Below are positions 61-17,840 of a DNA stretch of 23,326 nucleotides, in pieces; position 1 is the stretch's first letter, and each line of letters begins with the position of its first letter. The DNA lies in IMG/VR virus record IMGVR_UViG_3300028027_000246, positions 1 through 23,326 of that record. One strand, written 5' to 3'. The position numbers were made by a program, and so were the translations under genes. The DNA is from a virus. The notes beneath the pieces were generated by a model. It saw only the letters and a list, made by a program, of their open reading frames with translations. It did no database searches and was not told the DNA's origin.

Positions 61-897
61 TTATTTCTTAGCATCATCCGCAGAGTCATTCTGTACATCA
101 GCTATTTGCTTTTCCTCTACCATTAATTCTTTAGTCATAAACTCTAATACTATTAATCTAGCCATGTGAGCAGATACAGGATAGTTATCATCTTCTGTCA
201 TTGGAGCTTGGAAATTAGTATAATTAACTTCTGCCGTTCCTGTAAATGTGGTTACTCCTAATACTCCTGTAAATGTTTGACCGTTAATATAAACTACTGA
301 GTTATAGGTTACTGATGGTCCATTTACCGTATAAGATACGCCGGGCTTAATACTTCCTGATAAAACAGGTAAAGTATTTTTAACAGTTAATCCTTCAGTA
401 GTTTCGGGAACACCCATAAATCTTAAAAACTTAGTATTATTATTAACATAACCGTACTGACCAAATCTTGAATAATAATTAAACAAAGACCTAACATGTC
501 CGCTTGGTATCATTCTCCATCTTTCTAATGGGTAGTAAGTATATTGTTTTGAACCACAAGCAGATATAACTTTTAACCCCAAATCTAAATTTCCTTCTCC
601 TAAAGCCGTTAAATTCATTATAGGAACAGGTAGCTTAAACTTCATTATATCACAAGAACAATGAGTTATATTAGGGTCATCTGCGAAATTAACAGGGTAT
701 AATGGCAATGTTCCAAAGTCAACTAGCCAGTTTTGGTCTATTACTCCCGTATAGTTATATTCTTCAATTATCTTAGCGACTCTTATTTGTTCTATCTTAA
801 ATCCTATATATGTTTCATCTAATCGGCTATCATCAGTTCTTCCGAAGCGTGTTGCTAATATAAAAATATCATCTATGATTTGTCTTTTAGTAGGCAT
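61..897 (-). CDS. Head-tail connector-like virion protein
   Basis: A 278-aa protein with no signal peptide or membrane segment. Residues 1-60 are helical and contain a TDDSRLDE stretch and an IDQNWLVDFG stretch. This pattern recalls the N-terminal part of connector or adaptor proteins of Bacteroidota phages (recalled similarity, not searched). Residues about 183-224 form a beta-rich module with a YNSVVYINGQTFTGV core. A similar module occurs in the 271-aa protein at 10755-11570, and in both it is followed by a proline, a histidine and a C-terminal helix. The gene has its own leader with a TACATTTG element at 918-925. It stands apart from the rest of the head genes, separated from them by the lysis cassette and two opposed genes. 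The alternative is a baseplate or tail component. Confidence 0.55.
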   Translation of the reverse strand: MPTKRQIIDDIFILATRFGRTDDSRLDETYIGFKIEQIRVAKIIEEYNYTGVIDQNWLVDFGTLPLYPVNFADDPNITHCSCDIMKFKLPVPIMNLTALGEGNLDLGLKVISACGSKQYTYYPLERWRMIPSGHVRSLFNYYSRFGQYGYVNNNTKFLRFMGVPETTEGLTVKNTLPVLSGSIKPGVSYTVNGPSVTYNSVVYINGQTFTGVLGVTTFTGTAEVNYTNFQAPMTEDDNYPVSAHMARLIVLEFMTKELMVEEKQIADVQNDSADDAKK

Positions 898-9088: not shown

Positions 9089-10696
9089 TTAGTAGTTATA
9101 CAAAGTATCAGTAGCAACCGCTTCAAATTCAACTTCGTTAACAACCGCAGCAGCACTATTTAAGTTAGTGTATTGGAAGAATGGAATTAATACAGTTCCA
9201 GCAGGGAATACTAAAGGAGTAGTACCCGCAGAGTAAACTGGGTATTTAACATCATTCATCCACATACTAACAACACCGCTTGTAGAAACTTCAACAACAG
9301 CGGTGTTAACAGCATTGCTTACTAAGTTAGTAGCAGATGTGGTAACTACAGTGGAAAGTCCACCTAATATACCATAAGTAGCAACGGCAGAACCAGCAGC
9401 ACCTGTACCGATAGCAGCTAAGTTATTATAATCATTAAAATCAGCAGTAAACGCTTCTTTAACTCGGAAACCAGTTAAATAAACTACGTTAGCTACAGTT
9501 GTTACGGCAAACTTGTTAACCAAAGTCATAGAAGTTTTACCTACTACGAATTGTTGAGGGCAAGCAGCAACAACTTCAGGACAGTAATGAGCACCTCTAG
9601 CAGCAACAGCATCTTGTTCAATTAATAAACCGTTAGCACCTTGAATTGGAGCAAAAGTACTAGCGTGAGCGCCAACATTATAGTGATTTAATAAACCATA
9701 AGGAGTAATAAATTTATTTTTTAAACTTGTAGTACCAACAACAACAGCTCCAGCAGGACCTTGAATTAAGAAATTCTTATCAAAGAACTCTAAAGTAGCG
9801 TTAGGGTCTTGTCCATAAACAACACCTACTAAACGGTGTAATTCTTTTTCAATAGCTAAGTAACCCGCTAAATTAACAACAGAAGCACCTGCTCCATTAT
9901 CAACCCAAACAATACGTTGTTTAACTAATAAACCTGTAGTTCCTGTGATACCTGCAATTTGAGCATTCTCTAAATAAGTAATAGAAAAAGCATTGTATTT
10001 TTGACCTGCAACAGCAGAGGCACCTGATAAAGTTTTAGGAGCATCTACAGTACCAGAAATAACATTTCCAGTCATAAAGTCCATTACAGGAGCATTGTTA
10101 GCTAAATCTAAACCTACACCTACTGAATAAACAGCAGCAGTTGTTACTACGAAATCAGTTGCAGAGAAACCTGTAGCATCAGCGTTAGCTGCTAATACGA
10201 TTCTTGAAGCACCTTGACGAGTATTCATACCTTGGTGAGGGTAAGGGTAGTAACCAGCAGCATCAGTAATTGTGAAACCAGCACCACCTGTTAAAGTAGC
10301 AGCAGTTACAAAATTGTAAGTTGAAGCAGCATTGATTTTAGCAACTAAAGCAGCAGTGATAGCTTCACGCTGTAAAGCAGCAGTTGCACCTAAAGTTGTG
10401 ATTACAGGAGGAGTTGTGTAAGAATACTTCTTAAACGGCTCTGTGTAACCTTGACTTCTACGGTTAGAATCTCCGATTAATACTGTGTAAGCCGTAGAAG
10501 CTGTTGGAGTATAAAGAGACCCACCTACCGTAATTACTTGAACAACTTCCGCGCGGTAGTTAATTTGCGAAAAGTTGATGATTCTGTTTGTAGGGATAGG
10601 AGTTAATCCTGGGATTAACACATTACCACCACTGTACTGTACATCAGTTGATGCTGACGTATTAAACAGTACTGACCTGTTTACATTCTGTGACAT
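9089..10696 (-). CDS. Abundant virion structural protein candidate (535 aa)
   Basis: A long, alanine/valine/threonine-rich protein without signal peptide or enzymatic motif. It starts MSQNVNRSVLFNTS and contains IGDSNRRSQGYTEPFKKY near residue 75. It has its own leader with a TAAATTTG element and is closed by a strong terminator, giving it a separate transcription unit. Its composition is unusually rich in GCA/GCT codons. These features are those of a highly made virion protein. It could be a second major capsid-type or decoration protein, a tail-tube protein or a major tail protein; the sequence does not decide. The gene at 12897-14384 is the better major capsid candidate because it directly follows the scaffold-like gene. 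Confidence 0.6.
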   Translation of the reverse strand: MSQNVNRSVLFNTSASTDVQYSGGNVLIPGLTPIPTNRIINFSQINYRAEVVQVITVGGSLYTPTASTAYTVLIGDSNRRSQGYTEPFKKYSYTTPPVITTLGATAALQREAITAALVAKINAASTYNFVTAATLTGGAGFTITDAAGYYPYPHQGMNTRQGASRIVLAANADATGFSATDFVVTTAAVYSVGVGLDLANNAPVMDFMTGNVISGTVDAPKTLSGASAVAGQKYNAFSITYLENAQIAGITGTTGLLVKQRIVWVDNGAGASVVNLAGYLAIEKELHRLVGVVYGQDPNATLEFFDKNFLIQGPAGAVVVGTTSLKNKFITPYGLLNHYNVGAHASTFAPIQGANGLLIEQDAVAARGAHYCPEVVAACPQQFVVGKTSMTLVNKFAVTTVANVVYLTGFRVKEAFTADFNDYNNLAAIGTGAAGSAVATYGILGGLSTVVTTSATNLVSNAVNTAVVEVSTSGVVSMWMNDVKYPVYSAGTTPLVFPAGTVLIPFFQYTNLNSAAAVVNEVEFEAVATDTLYNY

Positions 10697-11650: not shown

Positions 11651-12772
11651 CTATTTACCCTCTGCTTCGGTAATCTTAGCTAGCAGGGTTTCTTTTTTAA
11701 CTGATGGCAAGTGCGCACCAGGTATCTTTAGAGCTTTTGCTCTCTCTCTTAATTCTGCCATTTCAGATTCATCATCTTTAGGTTTTTCAGTTAAATTAAA
11801 AGGAGAAACAAATTCCACCTCTTTGTTATTTTCTTTTAATAGAGCTTCTGCCTCCATTAATCTTTTTCTTAATTCAGCAACCTCATCATAAACGTTTGAT
11901 TCGTTTTGCTCTTCGTAACGAAGTCTCATAGCTTCTTTTGAATCGTTCTCTAAAGAATTACATCTAGCGTCAATAGAAGTAGCTAAATTGTTATTATCTA
12001 CTAAATACTTAATAGCCATTTCTTTTGTATGACCCATTTGTAATCCGTTATATTTGTAAGTTCCTTCTGCAAGGTTGTAGTCCAATATACCTAAAGCCAA
12101 ACCTCTATTAAATATAGAAATATATTGTCTTTGTGGATTCTCATACATTTCAATAAATGATTTTGGATTTTCTTCCATCTTGCGATAAACTTCATCCGTA
12201 AGCATAGATATGTTTCTATTAGCCTCTACATTAACACCTAAGTTAATAGCCATCTCTTGTAAGGAAGAACCTTGTAATTTAGCAATAATAACTTCTGCTT
12301 TTTGGCGGATTGTTCTTCTGCTAATATTCTCAGCAGCTTTCTTTTCCTTGTCTATTACTTTGTAGTAAGGTTTACCGTAAAGATTAGGACTTCCTTCCAT
12401 ACAAGTACTATTCTTTAAAATAGCCCATGCAATAGCTTGGTCAGGAACAGATAAATCGAATATGTTTCTATCTTCTAATGTAAAAGATTTACACATCAAT
12501 TCCTTTGTATCAGGATTAATACTAATTGGTAATCCCCAATACAGACCTGTGTTTCTGTCTTTAGTTTTACGGATAATTTTTTGATTTAGATGCTTGTTAG
12601 TTACCTTTAAAGCTTCTACTTCAATAATGCCTTCCATTTGGCAATACTTAGGGTTTTCAAGATTAACAAATTTATGGGCGAAACCATTTCCGTCCAAAAC
12701 TTCTTTGTAATCTACATCTTTTTTTAAGCCTCTCGCCGTAGACTGTCTCAAGTCAAGATTAAATACATTCAT
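11651..12772 (-). CDS. Virion-associated protein with C-terminal HeH/SAP-like domain (373 aa)
   Basis: The start is set at 12772 (MNVFNLDLRQS). The open frame runs on upstream to 12946, but that extension covers a promoter element, the capsid-gene terminator and the end of the capsid gene, and encodes hydrophobic junk. The middle is helical. A coiled coil follows near residues 300-330 (EVAELRKRLMEAEALLKENNKE). The last 37 residues (AELRERAKALKIPGAHLP, then KKETLLAKI) fit the helix-extended-loop-helix (SAP/LEM-like) fold, often nucleic-acid binding and found in phage head proteins. The gene has its own promoter-like element and terminator, so its level can differ from its neighbours. It probably sits in the head or binds DNA; the exact role is unknown. 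Confidence 0.65.
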   Translation of the reverse strand: MNVFNLDLRQSTARGLKKDVDYKEVLDGNGFAHKFVNLENPKYCQMEGIIEVEALKVTNKHLNQKIIRKTKDRNTGLYWGLPISINPDTKELMCKSFTLEDRNIFDLSVPDQAIAWAILKNSTCMEGSPNLYGKPYYKVIDKEKKAAENISRRTIRQKAEVIIAKLQGSSLQEMAINLGVNVEANRNISMLTDEVYRKMEENPKSFIEMYENPQRQYISIFNRGLALGILDYNLAEGTYKYNGLQMGHTKEMAIKYLVDNNNLATSIDARCNSLENDSKEAMRLRYEEQNESNVYDEVAELRKRLMEAEALLKENNKEVEFVSPFNLTEKPKDDESEMAELRERAKALKIPGAHLPSVKKETLLAKITEAEGK

Positions 12773-12797
12773 TTTGTTTATTTTTAAATTGTTTAGG

Positions 12798-12805
12798 CAA
12801 ATGTA
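12798..12805 (-). promoter_or_regulatory. Putative -7 element (TACATTTG) for the 373-aa gene
   Basis: The minus strand reads TACATTTG 25 bases upstream of the ATG at 12772. The preceding TTTTAT is also shared, so 14 bases are identical to the leader of the 61-897 gene. A TTTG at 12832-12835 lies 26 bases upstream, long for a -33 element. Confidence 0.5.
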
Positions 12806-12819
12806 ATAAAATATTTTGA

Positions 12820-12842
12820 TAAAAAATATGACAAAGTTGTAA
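12820..12842 (-). repeat. 22-bp dispersed motif, copy 3
   Basis: The minus strand reads TTACAACTTTGTCAT then ATTTTTTA, differing from copies at 970-991 and 22874-22895 by a few bases and one extra T. It is placed 48-70 bases upstream of the 373-aa gene, immediately after the capsid-gene terminator. Confidence 0.5.
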
Positions 12843-12843
12843 T

Positions 12844-12872
12844 AAAAAAACCCCTGTATTTCTACAAGGGTT
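12844..12872 (-). terminator. Rho-independent terminator after the major capsid gene
   Basis: On the minus strand AACCCTTGTA (from 12872) pairs with TACAGGGGTT around a GAAA tetraloop, followed by TTTTTTT. One pair is G-U on the minus-strand RNA but would be a C-A mismatch on the plus strand, so the hairpin fits leftward transcription. Confidence 0.88.
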
Positions 12873-12896
12873 CTTAGTTGTATATCTATTCTTAGA

Positions 12897-14384
12897 TTAG
12901 AATGATTTACGGATGATACACCATCTACGAGTATTGTAGATAACAATCATATCTTCGCGTAACATAGACATTTTCCAAGCATCTTCTTCAGAGATAGCTT
13001 CTCCAGCCATACCTGTTAAACCGTTGATAGTAGCAACTACGTTAGAACGATTAACACCGTAAGCACCTTTAGCGATGATTTCGATATTTGAATCATTGAT
13101 AGCTCCTAAATCACCACCGATATAAGTAGATGACATGATAGATTTTCCATCAGAACCTTTAGCAGGGAAACGTAAATCATCATCAAATAAAGGATGTTGT
13201 ACGAAACAAACTGAACTTCCTGCGAAGTGCATTTTCATAATTTCGTAACCTACTTCGATAGAAGCACCACCTTTAACATCTTGACGTAAAGTAGCATTTT
13301 GAGTAGCTATAAAACGAGCCATCTTACGTTGAGCGTTATAATAACCATCTAATCCAGTCATAAATACTAAGTTTACACCTACAGTATCATTACTAGATTT
13401 AGTTAAGATATTCATTGCATCAATAAAGTCATCTTCAGTAGCTTCACCATTAGTACCAGAACCGAAAATTTCGTTACCACCACCAATTTGCTCTTCGATA
13501 CCATCACCGATAGTAATAGGTAATCCTGTTTCTTCATCAATTAAGTTAGAAACTGTTGCACGAGAACCATCAGCATTCTTCATAGAAGATACACCAAAGA
13601 TTTTAGCAAATTCGTTTTCTACAGCCCATTGAGCTTCAGCTTGACGAACTTTCTCGAATTTCCATCCTTTTACAGGACCGTTAGAGCTCATGTATTCATA
13701 CCATAAGATGTCTGTAGCAGCGCCACCAGAGATAGATACAGTCTTACGTTGAGTAGTCATATCTACAATGAAAGTATCAGGGAATTGGTCACGACCATAT
13801 CCTTTTAAAGATTTCTCAGAGTAAGCAGTAGTAGAAGGGAAACAAGTATAAGTACCACCTGTTTGAGATGCTACTACAGTTGCCCAAGAGAATACTGATT
13901 TTTGTTGATTTTGGAAAGATACTAACCATCCAGCAGCTACACGAGTAGGAGTAGACATAACTACAGCTTGGTAACGACCTGCGTTAGCAAACAATACGAT
14001 TTGTCCTTTGTAGATATAACATCCACGACCACCTTCGTCAGCGATAACTAATTGGAAAGACCCATCAGAACCACTAGAACCTACTTGAGATAAGATAGTA
14101 GCAGCTTTTTGGATACGACCCATAATGTTGAAACGGTAAGAAGAATCACCAATTAATTGGCTGTCTTTTACTTTTCCAAATTTAGTTTCAGCTTTAACGT
14201 CAATACCGTAAGGTCCTACAGCTCCTGAAGTTAATAATGTTGTTAATTGACGTCTGTCAACTCGCTCTAATACTTTGCGTATTTCGGGCATTTTTTGCAT
14301 GTTTCTTACTAAGTCGAACTCGGTTGTACAGTCTGCTGACCATGAACCTTTTACGATTTGAGTTTGTCCTGGATTTAATGACAT
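12897..14384 (-). CDS. Major capsid protein candidate (495 aa)
   Basis: It follows the scaffold-like gene directly, in the usual packaging-portal-scaffold-capsid order, and is about 500 residues as in crAss-like and related Bacteroidota phages. The N-terminus (GSWSADCTTEFDLVRNMQKM) and internal GYGRDQFPD and MTGLDGYYNAQRKMARF segments look like a HK97-type capsid subunit with an inserted domain around residues 100-200; this is recalled resemblance, not a search. Most arginines that I checked use CGT, unlike the AGA-rich neighbours, and a strong terminator follows at once, both expected for a very abundant protein. There is no enzymatic motif. The competing candidate is the 535-aa protein at 9089-10696. 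Confidence 0.75.
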   Translation of the reverse strand: MSLNPGQTQIVKGSWSADCTTEFDLVRNMQKMPEIRKVLERVDRRQLTTLLTSGAVGPYGIDVKAETKFGKVKDSQLIGDSSYRFNIMGRIQKAATILSQVGSSGSDGSFQLVIADEGGRGCYIYKGQIVLFANAGRYQAVVMSTPTRVAAGWLVSFQNQQKSVFSWATVVASQTGGTYTCFPSTTAYSEKSLKGYGRDQFPDTFIVDMTTQRKTVSISGGAATDILWYEYMSSNGPVKGWKFEKVRQAEAQWAVENEFAKIFGVSSMKNADGSRATVSNLIDEETGLPITIGDGIEEQIGGGNEIFGSGTNGEATEDDFIDAMNILTKSSNDTVGVNLVFMTGLDGYYNAQRKMARFIATQNATLRQDVKGGASIEVGYEIMKMHFAGSSVCFVQHPLFDDDLRFPAKGSDGKSIMSSTYIGGDLGAINDSNIEIIAKGAYGVNRSNVVATINGLTGMAGEAISEEDAWKMSMLREDMIVIYNTRRWCIIRKSF

Positions 14385-14419: not shown

Positions 14420-15574
14420 TTAACCATTAAGATATGTGTCTCCTTTCAATCTTTCAAAATTACCTTCTGTGTTTGTTGTTATTGATTTTCCTGCTCCTCC
14501 AGTTGTTAATGGTGGTGTGTTATGCAGCTTTTTAGTTATTTCAAGTCTCCCCTTAGCATAGCTTTTAGCTTCTAGGTTTTTTTGAGCCTTTTGACCTAAC
14601 TCTATATACGCAATAAACTCTGCTTTTTTAATTGGGTCATTGAACATTTGGTCGTACTTTCCATTGTTCATTCTTTCCGTTAATCCTTGCTTAACCTCGC
14701 TCGTTAATGGAGAACCCATAAACTCTGACATATTATTCAAAGCTTTTGATACAGATTCTAGATTTTGAACGCGCTCTTGCATGGCGTATTTTTCAGCGTT
14801 TACTTTATAATTATTTACTATATCTTCTCTGCGATATTGTTCTTCTCTTTGGATGTTATCCAATTCAACAATTATCTTTTTATGCTCATGCTCTAATCTT
14901 CCATCTACAGCAGTTAAGATTTCCATCTCTGTATCTATCATATCAGGAGTCCAATCAGTATGAGTTAACTCTAAGTTCTTTCTTACTAATTCTAATGCAG
15001 GCATAGCTTTAAATTCATTTATCTTAGTAAATGGAGCTACAATCTCATCAAATGTTAATCCTGCTTCCGCTAATTGAAAAACCATCTTTACATTAGGGTC
15101 CTCAAACTTAGATATTAATTTCTCTGTAGTTAAAGATTCAACCTCTCTTAGCTTTTCTTCATAAGGAGCAGTTATAGCTTCTTTGTAAGCTTCTAAAGAA
15201 TCTTCTTTTAACTCTAATCCATCTAGTTTAGCTATGTAAGCCCAACTGCCATCTTCAGGTTCGTTTGAATTAGTATCCTCTAAAGATAAAGGCTCTAAAT
15301 CTAAGGTCTCCGTTTCAGTTGTAGGCTCTTCTTTAGCTTCAGTAGGCTTTGCAGCTTCTTCTACTTTAACCTCAGGCTCTAGTCCTAAATCTTTAACTTC
15401 ATCTTTTGAAGCATCTTCTTTTGTTATTTCCGTAGGCTTTGCTTCTTCTGTTGCTTCGTTGTAGTTTGAATTTAAAAACGTATCATCCGATAGTAACTCG
15501 AAGTTAGCACGAGCTGGCGCAGACGATTCCTCTCGAACCGTATCATTTTGCACTGCTGTTGTTTCTTCTGTCAT
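14420..15574 (-). CDS. Acidic scaffold-like head protein (384 aa)
   Basis: The N-terminal third (about 36-115) is a low-complexity stretch rich in Glu, Pro, Thr and Lys (KPTEAKEEPTTETETLDLEP). The middle is helical (LREVESLTTEKLISKF, MQERVQNLESVSKALNNM). The protein lies between portal and capsid genes. Composition and place are those of an internal scaffold. The motif NFELLSDDTFLN at 24-35 recurs as NFERLKGDTYLN at 372-383, eight of twelve positions identical, so the same short peptide caps both ends; such peptides could contact capsid subunits. A TATATTTG element lies 20 bases upstream of the ATG. No protease motif is seen, so scaffold processing is not indicated. Confidence 0.65.
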   Translation of the reverse strand: MTEETTAVQNDTVREESSAPARANFELLSDDTFLNSNYNEATEEAKPTEITKEDASKDEVKDLGLEPEVKVEEAAKPTEAKEEPTTETETLDLEPLSLEDTNSNEPEDGSWAYIAKLDGLELKEDSLEAYKEAITAPYEEKLREVESLTTEKLISKFEDPNVKMVFQLAEAGLTFDEIVAPFTKINEFKAMPALELVRKNLELTHTDWTPDMIDTEMEILTAVDGRLEHEHKKIIVELDNIQREEQYRREDIVNNYKVNAEKYAMQERVQNLESVSKALNNMSEFMGSPLTSEVKQGLTERMNNGKYDQMFNDPIKKAEFIAYIELGQKAQKNLEAKSYAKGRLEITKKLHNTPPLTTGGAGKSITTNTEGNFERLKGDTYLNG

Positions 15575-15608: not shown

Positions 15609-17840
15609 TTATTCTAATATTTGATTTTGATTGTTAAGATTTTCTGTTTGAGCTTGGAAATTCATTTTAGTAACATCGTTTCCTGCCTTTGCAGCATTTA
15701 CTTTAATGTCAACTTCTCCTTGTGCAATAATCTCCTCTATTCTAGCAGCTTGTCTATCTTCTCTATCTGCATTAGATATTTCTAATTGCTGCTGAAGTTG
15801 TTGTTGCTGCATTTGAATTTGTTGTTGTTGCATTTGCATTTGAGACTGTTGTTGCATTTGTTGAGATTGAGATTGCATTTCTTTTACCTTATTCCAACCT
15901 TCTTTTAATATTTGTTTTTGCTCTACGGCAGTTTCAGACCAAGCAAATGATAAGGCATCTTCTGGACGTATTTCTTTTGCATTTAAAGAGTTAGCCATTA
16001 AGCTTTCCATATAACGCTTAACCTCTGCATACTTACCTGAATCTTGTAAATGTACACCATAATCCTTAAATCCTAATTCTTGGGTTACGCGCATAAACTT
16101 CCACTTATCAATACCTAATATTTGCTCTCCTTCTTCTACTTTATAGAATGCCCAAGTAACCTTAGTTGATTCTATAATTCTCATTAAAGTCTTATCAATA
16201 AAAGAATAAACTCCGTAGAAGAAAGGCTCTGTAATAGTTCTTGATGCTTGTATAGCAGAATTGGTGTTTGTAGCCGTTGCAGATGCCGCGATTTGACCTT
16301 CTCTATTCTCAGAAATTCCAGTCATTCTATCCATCATTTGAAGGATAACATCTTTGAATTGAATTAAAGCTCCAAATGAGTTACTTAATCCTAAATCTTC
16401 TACTTGTAATATGTTGTTTAAAGATACATCTCTACCATGAAAGTTACCACTAGCAGATGTATCATAAGTTACAAATCCATCATTAACCATATCGTATTGT
16501 ATAGCTTTAACGGATGATTTTGCAGGCAAGCCAGCTAAGTTAAATCCTAACACTTTACCTTTGAACTTATTAATATCTTTTAATATCTGATACATAACTA
16601 TATCAAATATATTACTCCAATTCTCCATTTGTTGAAACATAGAAATTCTACGTCCATCTACTGTGTTGAACAAATATCCAACGTAAGAGCTACTTAATAT
16701 GTAAGCAGGGTTGTCTACTTTTCTCATTTGGAATTGAACTCGTCTGCAATTAACATCTAATTCTTTTAATCCGCCGATACGAGTCGCTTCCCATAAATCT
16801 TCTCTATACTTAGCAATTACTTCAATCCCTGGCTTACTATCCCAATGCTCTTTATTCATCTCATACTTATCTGTATCTAAAGCAATATAGATATATTCTT
16901 CTGTTGGGTCTAACGCTAATTGAGTTGCCGTCTTTTTAATCTTTTGGTAGTATTCAGGTATAACTGAAATCCATTCAACATGAATAACCTCTGCGATTAA
17001 TCCTGTTCCACTTGGACCATCTTTAATACTATCTGAGTAATATGTTGTTGGGTTTTTACCAATAGATTCAATAGTTTCAATTTGCTTTTTATCTAATTGG
17101 TAACGTCTTAATATTTCGTGTAATGGCAACCATTGACGGCATCCTTTGATAGGACTTTTCTCTAAATGCGGGTCACCTTTAATCTCTTCGTAAATAGCAT
17201 CTCTAGGGTCAATGTTTATGTAGTCCGTATCTCCTTTTTCATTACGTTCTATTTTACCAAACATAACAGAAGTAATTGCACAGTCTAATAAGTTATCTGC
17301 AAACTTTTGTTTTAAATTCAACGCAGGTATTTGCTCATTAAGGATAGATTGCATAATTAATTCTTCCTTATCCTTTGTAGACATATTCTCCCAAATTGGG
17401 TCATTCTCATCTTCAGGAATTGGAGCGCCTTCCATTATATCTACCCCTGCTTTTTCCTTCAACTCTAATATCTCTTTCTTGGCAATCATTGCCCCTGTCA
17501 TAAACTCAAATTGAGACATCTTTTGGAATTTAGCATCTCTATTATTTGTAAAAACAGTTGCACTTAAAGGTCTTACTAAAAACTCTCCAACCATTAGTTG
17601 AATTTTTGTAGTACAAGCTCTGTAAGATATAAATTGAGCACGATTTTCCTTACCATGCGTGTTAATTAAATACTTATAACTACCTGCTCGCTTAACCCCA
17701 TTAAATTGCTTGTAATGGTTATCCATTTCTTGTTTAGCTAAGTTACTGTTTCTCAGTATTCTTTGACCGTAATCTAAGTGTAACTGACACCAAGCTTTAT
17801 CTTTTTTAAATTGCGGGACTGTTTGCGATGGAAATTGCAT
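15609..17840 (-). CDS. Portal protein (743 aa)
   Basis: It is placed directly after the terminase large subunit gene. The order, size and an MDRMTGISENREGQ segment (TGI ... GQ, followed by SAIQASR) match the long-helix region of portal proteins in Bacteroidota phages. The protein would form the dodecameric ring at one capsid vertex through which DNA enters. Residues about 653-685 are almost entirely Gln and Met with some Ile and Leu, and would form a polar helix or coiled coil; the last 58 residues are charged. A TATTTTTG element lies 18 bases upstream of the ATG. No frameshift or truncation is seen. Confidence 0.85.
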   Translation of the reverse strand: MQFPSQTVPQFKKDKAWCQLHLDYGQRILRNSNLAKQEMDNHYKQFNGVKRAGSYKYLINTHGKENRAQFISYRACTTKIQLMVGEFLVRPLSATVFTNNRDAKFQKMSQFEFMTGAMIAKKEILELKEKAGVDIMEGAPIPEDENDPIWENMSTKDKEELIMQSILNEQIPALNLKQKFADNLLDCAITSVMFGKIERNEKGDTDYINIDPRDAIYEEIKGDPHLEKSPIKGCRQWLPLHEILRRYQLDKKQIETIESIGKNPTTYYSDSIKDGPSGTGLIAEVIHVEWISVIPEYYQKIKKTATQLALDPTEEYIYIALDTDKYEMNKEHWDSKPGIEVIAKYREDLWEATRIGGLKELDVNCRRVQFQMRKVDNPAYILSSSYVGYLFNTVDGRRISMFQQMENWSNIFDIVMYQILKDINKFKGKVLGFNLAGLPAKSSVKAIQYDMVNDGFVTYDTSASGNFHGRDVSLNNILQVEDLGLSNSFGALIQFKDVILQMMDRMTGISENREGQIAASATATNTNSAIQASRTITEPFFYGVYSFIDKTLMRIIESTKVTWAFYKVEEGEQILGIDKWKFMRVTQELGFKDYGVHLQDSGKYAEVKRYMESLMANSLNAKEIRPEDALSFAWSETAVEQKQILKEGWNKVKEMQSQSQQMQQQSQMQMQQQQIQMQQQQLQQQLEISNADREDRQAARIEEIIAQGEVDIKVNAAKAGNDVTKMNFQAQTENLNNQNQILE
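15785..15885 (-). repeat. CAA/CAG-rich low-complexity tract encoding poly-Gln/Met
   Basis: The plus strand is a run of TTG/CTG/CAT/TTG triplets, read on the minus strand as CAA, CAG and ATG codons. It encodes QQMQQQSQMQMQQQQ-type sequence in the portal C-terminal region. Such triplet runs can change length by replication slippage without breaking the frame. Confidence 0.8.

Follow-up and report, generated by a model that had tools for sequence, protein, structure and literature searches.

Terminal coat-binding elements have been described in several scaffolding proteins of tailed phages. The scaffolding protein of 80alpha and the CpmB protein of SaPI1 bind capsid protein via their C-terminal 16 residues, the same peptide being present in phage and satellite protein (PMC5644958). 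Similarly, P22 gp8 binds coat by a C-terminal hook, and a loop of this protein lies in the clefts of the portal (PMC12005531). In SPP1 gp11, N-terminal helices bind the major capsid protein (MCP), and the dimer, with its two hooks, has been proposed to connect two subunits of this protein (PMC6813328). For the Crassvirales, a passage of a 2023 review describes the mechanisms of capsid assembly as yet to be established and infected cells as suggestive of some scaffolding (PMC10136315). A figure legend of Yutin et al. names a "gene77 putative structural protein" between portal and MCP (PMC7886860); judged by its position, this is perhaps the gene considered here. A surface search of the largely open-access literature revealed neither a described two-ended scaffold nor a described crAss scaffold.

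The window analyzed in this study (the whole stretch of 23,326 nucleotides of IMG/VR record IMGVR_UViG_3300028027_000246) represents part of a crAss-like phage genome; it encodes an MCP of the crAss type along with a portal, a terminase, and a ring protein. In Pfam, the MCP matched Crass_capsid (41.7 bits, cut-off 27, E 6.8e-11), and a 278-aa ORF (61-897, minus strand) matched CrAss_Ring_2, PF25702, tail ring protein 2 (32.1 bits, cut-off 27). The portal matched its PHROG family with an E-value of 1e-49, and the terminase also matched a phage family in PHROG. Furthermore, 30 phage records were matched by the portal at 21-29% identity, the named ones being crAss-like. The features of the locus are summarized in Table 1. 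The gaps between portal and scaffold-like gene and between the latter and the MCP gene contain no ORF of at least 60 aa. The same order of portal, scaffold-position gene, and MCP is found directly adjacent in phi14:2; in cr53_1, cr115_1, and cr6_1 the portal also lies upstream of the scaffold-position gene, with up to three genes intervening. The ORF after the MCP (11651-12946, minus strand) ends in LKIPGAHLPSVKKETLLAKI, and its counterpart in locus L022 ends in a similar segment; this tail looks like a small DNA-binding tail, which we take to be SAP or HeH-like.

Table 1. Features of the scaffold locus (window coordinates unless a locus is named)
Feature	Coordinates	Strand	Evidence
Portal protein, alternative partner	15609..17840	-	phrog_6547; upstream of scaffold-like ORF; no extra correlation with motif
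Scaffold-like protein, 384 aa	14420..15574	-	sole ORF between portal and MCP genes; AF2 helical core
N-terminal motif copy, residues 24-35, NFELLSDDTFLN	15470..15505	-	repeat, conservation, AF2 turn
Acidic low-complexity linker, residues 36-104	15263..15469	-	predicted disordered; indel-rich among relatives, gap fraction 0.17
Helical core, residues 105-351	14522..15262	-	ten-residue blocks 111 to 350 at pLDDT 78-95
Short linker, residues 352-371	14462..14521	-	mostly disordered, pLDDT <50 at 359-371
C-terminal motif copy, residues 372-383, NFERLKGDTYLN	14426..14461	-	one residue short of protein end
Major capsid protein (MCP), crAss type, proposed binding partner	12897..14384	-	PF23898; downstream of scaffold-like ORF; partial correlation with motif
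RecX-annotated scaffold-position genes	L101:9176-10357, L102:8704-9900, L106:8922-10088, L107:8894-10111, L108:7640-8818, L109:8506-9666		

Judged by gene position and by its acidic, helical make-up, the 384-aa ORF most likely encodes the capsid scaffolding protein of this phage. It lies downstream of the portal and upstream of the MCP gene, as expected of the scaffolding protein of a tailed phage, and it has an acidic, mostly helical, elongated build with disordered tails; in the near-identical protein of locus L002 the fraction of D+E is 0.21. The protein had no match in PHROG at E 0.1 and none in NCBIfam at E 0.01, a single Pfam match under its cut-off, and no significant fold or sequence match in the PDB (best fold match E 0.7), so these four resources place it in no known scaffold family or fold. 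As known scaffolds are very diverse among themselves, this missing match weighs little. Two relatives matched phrog_16294, a family of unknown function (E 6e-6 and 6e-5). Neither the scaffold-like protein nor the window MCP matched a protein of the annotated phages, and a search of genome contigs returned 162 matched stretches with no relative among them.

The AlphaFold2 (AF2) monomer, built on a 19-row alignment (mean pLDDT 69.8, pTM 0.45), predicts helices spanning residues 111 to 351, with long ones at 226-281 and 314-351, between disordered tails. Acidic low-complexity sequence and helices in the rest of the protein, as described in an earlier reading of the sequence alone, were thus borne out by the acidic disordered linker and the predicted helices. 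The pLDDT falls below 50 at residues 1-22, 35-94, 96-104, and, within the short linker, 359-371. The only short helical turns predicted in the tails, 26-29 and 373-377, each lie inside a motif copy. As the low-scoring segments flank the two copies and spare them, the copies seem to stand out from the tails in this model; with block means of 43-56, their own pLDDT is also of low confidence.

The repeat itself is exactly as the sequence-only reading had claimed: eight of the twelve positions of the two terminal copies are identical, with an F/Y exchange at position 10. No other pair of 12-mers in the whole protein matches as well as the two copies, whose BLOSUM62 score is 42. Among all 12-mer pairs of this one protein, this score was reached in 1 of 3000 shuffles and at least eight identities in 37 of 3000, the identity count alone thus corresponding to about 1%. 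The terminal repeat of the window protein was therewith confirmed as genuine.

That reading had further held that the repeat would fall if homologues kept only one copy or neither. Both copies are kept in the 11 close relatives and in loci L121, L122, L124, L126, L127, and L229. All 11 close relatives found carry both copies, at a best-segment identity of 93-99%, and the only change among them, common to L004 and L005, is a T-to-K substitution in the N copy; these relatives are too near the window to tell much. More distant relatives were found with an alignment of the window and L022 MCPs, and still more with a five-MCP alignment. The scaffolds of L121, L122, L126, L127, and L229 are 41-44% identical to that of the window, and both copies are recognizable in each of them (N/C copies: L121, NFDLLSTDSYIN/NFEKLENDPHLN; L122, NFDLLSTDSFING/NFELLENDPHLNG; L126, NFDLLSTDATLNG/NFELLDGDTNLNG; L127, NFELLQSDTVLNG/NFEKLETDTHLKG; L229, NFDFLSSDANLN/NFERLAGDPNLG). 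In the scaffolds of the window, L121, L126, L127, and L229, the copies form islands of conservation with mean pairwise identities of 0.63 and 0.65; elsewhere in these five proteins the identity is 0.32 (first 22 residues), 0.45 (acidic linker), 0.50 (core), and 0.43 (second linker).

In farther lineages the peptide is replaced, but both ends are replaced alike. Examples chosen by eye are VEDRLLSDFG/VEQRLEADFG in L022, DLSKLASEPGLK/GLAKLRDEPGLK in L232, GLDRLSQDPNF/GIDRVANDPAF in L245, NWDALTSSQEFGD/NWTALDKEFGN in L249, PFAILETEPVFKS/QFDILKEEKAFSS in L130, and QFDILETEPIFAS/QFDILKEEFGEK in L133, and, in another family, NPFAGFNLL/NPFAGFKKL in L212 and DIFGGFDLF/DPFGGFDKL in L214.

This concerted change was quantified, with no such choice by eye, on two protein sets. 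The first (n=89) consisted of the window protein, those of nine annotated crAss phages, eight ORFs upstream of an MCP, and an acidity-filtered remainder. The eight ORFs stem from 13, of which five were dropped as identical repeats; four non-scaffold ORFs were removed by hand, and portal-bearing loci without such an ORF before the contig end were excluded. For the second set, 135 of 167 loci were used, and in 125 of these an ORF was obtained immediately upstream of the MCP; the 32 loci left out were 10 further near-identical relatives of the window, one duplicate (L135), and 21 with matches starting within 900 bases of the contig end. Together, the 214 proteins were reduced to 91 representatives (<60% identity) and, after removal of six possibly cut at the 5' end, to 85. 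The score was that of the best ungapped 10-mer shared by the first 50 and the last 22 residues.

Over the 85 scaffolds, the score averaged 17.8 within and 14.5 between proteins, a difference (z 7.5) that none of 20,000 permutations reached. For the window clade (n=14) the values were 26.1 and 17.1 (0 of 20,000), and in the other 71 scaffolds 16.1 and 14.3 (1 of 20,000, and 3 of 20,000 on repeat). When the proteins were grouped by their bodies, tails excluded, into 27, 23, or 15 families, each grouping gave 0 of 20,000. With one random member per family, the median permutation p over 300 draws was 0, and the largest values were 0.003, 0.007, and 0.067 for 27, 23, and 15 families, respectively. 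By the 10-mer score, 15 of 23 families were higher within than between; those that were not include L237, which belongs to the window's own clade, L031, L073, L083, L279, and cr124_1. Fifteen families outside the window clade gave 23 of 5000 permutations. Omission of the family of L042, L185, L212, and L214 left 67 proteins outside the clade, with 129 of 20,000 (z 2.55). Low-complexity matches, for instance that of L296 (PENPE), were rejected as spurious, and without both L296 and the L042 family the value was 245 of 20,000 (z 2.3). Tested singly against their own shuffled ends, 8 of the 14 clade members and 16 of all 85 proteins reached the 5% level. Suoliviridae-like phages carry, as judged by eye, an N-terminal GGF[ED]A and a C-terminal W[DE] pattern at similar spacing, which the score hardly catches (645 of 20,000 permutations, n=28). 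As the signal concentrates in the window clade and one other family, the concerted pattern is firm there and suggestive elsewhere.

A stricter test compared the copies at a single fixed offset, supplied by the 19-row alignment A7; this alignment does not align N and C copies to each other. It covered 17 phages, two near-duplicates having been dropped, in nine families grouped by hand. The N and C copies of one protein scored 15.9 against each other (13.2 averaged over the nine families), and across families the scores were 11.1 for N-N, 5.4 for C-C, and 5.2 for N-C. By these scores, the two peptides of one protein are on average more alike than the same peptide across families. With BLOSUM62, 0 of 20,000 permutations reached the observed value for phages and for families alike; with identities, the counts were 0 of 20,000 for phages and 1 of 20,000 for families. 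The covariation lies mostly in columns 2, 4, and 8 (1, 0, and 3 of 3000), and columns 6 and 7 never agree.

Most internal control windows of the same proteins were flat. Comparison of the C-end with residues 26-75, which overlap the N copy of the window clade, gave z 5.05 (89 of 5000 by family). For the C-end against residues 251-300, the values of 5 of 3000 and, by family, 8 of 5000 derive partly from self-overlap in the 310-aa protein of L083; without overlaps, a small residue remains (93 of 5000). The same fault affects two windows at the family level, with starts at 275 and 300; the former gave 366 of 5000 once overlaps were removed. Comparison of the N-end with the 22-mer that stops 44 residues short of the protein end gave 111 of 5000 by family and 286 of 3000 by protein. 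The reading that chance or a common composition of both tails produced the likeness, for which the modest identity count of the window pair would speak, is scarcely credible in view of the permutations over 85 proteins and 23 families and of the internal windows, most of which had no effect.

Gene conversion, too, makes sequences within a protein more alike than those of different lineages, and a recent internal DNA duplication or conversion could have made the copies alike without functional constraint. The codons point the other way. At identical residues with degenerate codons, 46 of 100 shared the same codon over 15 pairs, compared to 52.2 expected from the codon usage of each gene. The 15 pairs were the clear ones by eye, a choice that would favor seeing DNA copying if it were present. 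In the window pair, one of eight identical residues shares its codon; the highest values, 5 of 6 each, were found for L245 and L214 and would fit copying in these two. Furthermore, the flanks diverge while the motif copies stay conserved. Copying at the DNA level is hence very improbable. As identical residues share codons no more often than expected, selection appears to keep the copies equal. The twin peptide thus seems to be more than a repeat: going by the sequences, it is kept equal by selection while it changes.

The sequence-only reading had proposed a duplicated element binding capsid or portal. The concerted change of the copies speaks strongly for such an element; the choice of partner was narrowed only modestly, toward the MCP. 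Over the 17 phages, the distance between motifs correlates with that of the MCP (0.75), of the scaffold core (0.71), and of the portal (0.66). With the other two distances allowed for, the partial correlations were 0.39 for the MCP (2 of 2000 permutations), 0.21 for the core (122 of 2000), and -0.09 for the portal (1435 of 2000). Taken singly, the N copy gave a partial correlation with the MCP of 0.26 (67 of 2000) and the C copy one of 0.37 (0 of 2000). In a set thinned to 11 phages no partner was significant (MCP 0.19, 263 of 2000; core 0.17, 330 of 2000). A scan of MCP segments against the motif gave no clear site, and the N-arm, which is the binding place of other scaffolds, did not stand out; the best windows, 97-121 (1 of 300) and 289-313 (4 of 300), fail correction for about 40 windows. 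An AF2 model of the C-peptide fused to the MCP, a natural read-through in L126, had a mean pLDDT of 33, too low to inform on docking. Based on the partial correlation and on the analogy with known scaffolds, the MCP is the best guess of the partner.

Alternatively, both peptides could dock on the helical core of the scaffold itself, in the same or a neighboring chain, and drive multimerization, with the core as coevolving partner. The divergence of the core does follow that of the motif, in the raw as in the partial correlation, but motif divergence is explained more by the MCP than by the core in the 17 phages; in the thinned set the two are about equal and neither is significant. The AF2 monomer places both copies at low confidence, and we regard docking on the core as unlikely, if with some residual weight. 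The binding of one or both copies to the portal, nucleating assembly at the portal vertex, would have a parallel in P22, where part of the scaffold lies in the portal clefts (PMC12005531), and a portal segment, IYEEIKGDPHLE, bears a faint likeness to the motif. This likeness does not exceed what shuffling yields (17.8, the best shuffled matches averaging 18.8), and the portal shows no correlation beyond shared history, which makes this reading improbable.

The segment IYEEIKGDPHLE (residues 216-227 of the portal; IYEEIDGDTFLE in record G002) was accordingly rejected as a third motif copy. In the scan for further copies, which covered the window and five longer records, the motif models include each record's own copies (for G003, those of near-identical kin), so the scaffold copies score high by construction; exceptions are G006 and G004, whose gapped C copies score 19.5 and 20.0. 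No credible third copy was found in these six records, and nothing else was clear of 20 shuffled sets. A 535-aa ORF of the window (9089-10696, minus strand) ends in EFEAVATDTLYN (residues 523-534), which resembles the scaffold C copy in sequence and place. Its score is 22.9, and the near-identical G003 has it too, but scores of up to 25.3 occur in shuffled sets and G002 does not list it; it was therefore rejected. A 199-aa ORF of G004 (L314:110-709, minus strand) has SFEICNKKIFD near its end, at a distance of four residues; with the G004 scaffold motif this segment scores 25.0, marginally more than the top value among 20 shuffled sets (24.5).

A prohead protease could also read the two copies, as recognition or cleavage sites in the processing of the scaffold. 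Two equal sites with one coevolving reader would yield the same concerted pattern, and in some gut crAss phages a protease or peptidase is annotated between portal and scaffold-position gene. In the 15 pairs, however, the C copy stops 0-3 residues short of the C-terminus, an unlikely place for cutting, and in the window no ORF of at least 60 aa separates the scaffold gene from the portal or the MCP gene, and the MCP holds no copy of the motif. Processing is thus as doubtful as portal binding.

We consider the odds slightly in favor of a scaffold that acts as a two-ended clamp, both terminal motifs binding a single coevolving site, which the MCP most likely provides. Such a scaffold would consist of a helical core flanked by two disordered tails, with a lineage-specific short linear motif at or near each end. 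Each motif would dock at the same site of a single partner, the inner face of the MCP being the most likely place, and one chain would link two capsid subunits during procapsid assembly. Any change of the docking site would force both copies to follow, and the need to follow one changing site would explain why the copies are alike within a protein and divergent between lineages. Whether crAss-like capsids in general are built with such a clamp, capsid site and peptides forming a lineage-specific lock and key whose keys are kept equal by selection alone, we rate at even chances. If this holds, the pair of copies reports, from sequence alone, the scaffold residues that contact the capsid in gut crAss-like phages and their environmental kin. 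For the Crassvirales, the findings point to a scaffold gene with two functional ends and to residues for mutagenesis. They also offer a clear case of two short peptides evolving in concert without sign of DNA copying, in which concerted evolution, read from the sequence alone, serves as evidence for a shared binding site.

Counterparts of the gene are found in described crAss phages. Gene gp31 of crAss001 and the 'RecX regulatory protein' genes of cr-phages share the locus upstream of the MCP, the acidity, and a length of 374-405 aa. The terminal likeness of gp31, in contrast, is weak (score 17, 335 of 1000 shuffles), and the Suoliviridae-like group differs by another type of motif, with GGFEA.. 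at the N end and W[DE].. at the C end. The main text of two crAss001 virion papers (PMC10172136, PMC6235969) makes no mention of gp31, and the word "scaffold" is absent from that of the structure paper (PMC10172136). In phi14:2, an MS/MS note is attached to gp104 and gp102 and not to gp103 between them. In gut crAss phages the scaffold-position gene is annotated as 'regulatory protein' with a RecX note (Table 1); on an acidic helical protein in scaffold position, this label looks like a misannotation. In the scaffold genes of L102, L106, L107, and L108 and of loci L257, L261, L276, L277, L278, and L295, the reading frame can be continued across in-frame TAG codons, in line with the TAG recoding reported for crAss-like phages (PMC7886860).

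Among the well-described scaffolds, 80alpha gp46 and SaPI1 CpmB, with their RIIK helix-and-hook, resemble the window protein in having a short terminal amphipathic peptide on a presumably flexible tether that binds capsid protein (PMC5644958). The 80alpha peptide is described at the C-terminus, however, and the ends of gp46 are not alike (score 11, 820 of 1000 shuffles). P22 gp8 shares the helical body, the loops, and a C-terminal coat hook (PMC12005531), and the P22 gene order of portal, scaffold, and coat is that of the window, but its coat-binding hook is C-terminal and its ends are not alike (431 of 1000 shuffles). Similarly, the ends of T7 gp9 are not alike (810 of 1000 shuffles). SPP1 gp11 and phi29 gp7, set beside the window protein by their description, bind MCP by a terminal hook (PMC6813328); unlike here, the hook is N-terminal and the scaffold becomes two-handed by dimerization, whereas in the window protein both hands would lie in one chain. 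In each of the known scaffolds examined, a chain holds the coat by a single end. The window scaffold departs from them in its two matching terminal copies, both of which would bind, and such a two-ended chain would differ from the dimerizing solution of SPP1 and be useful for the design of protein cages.
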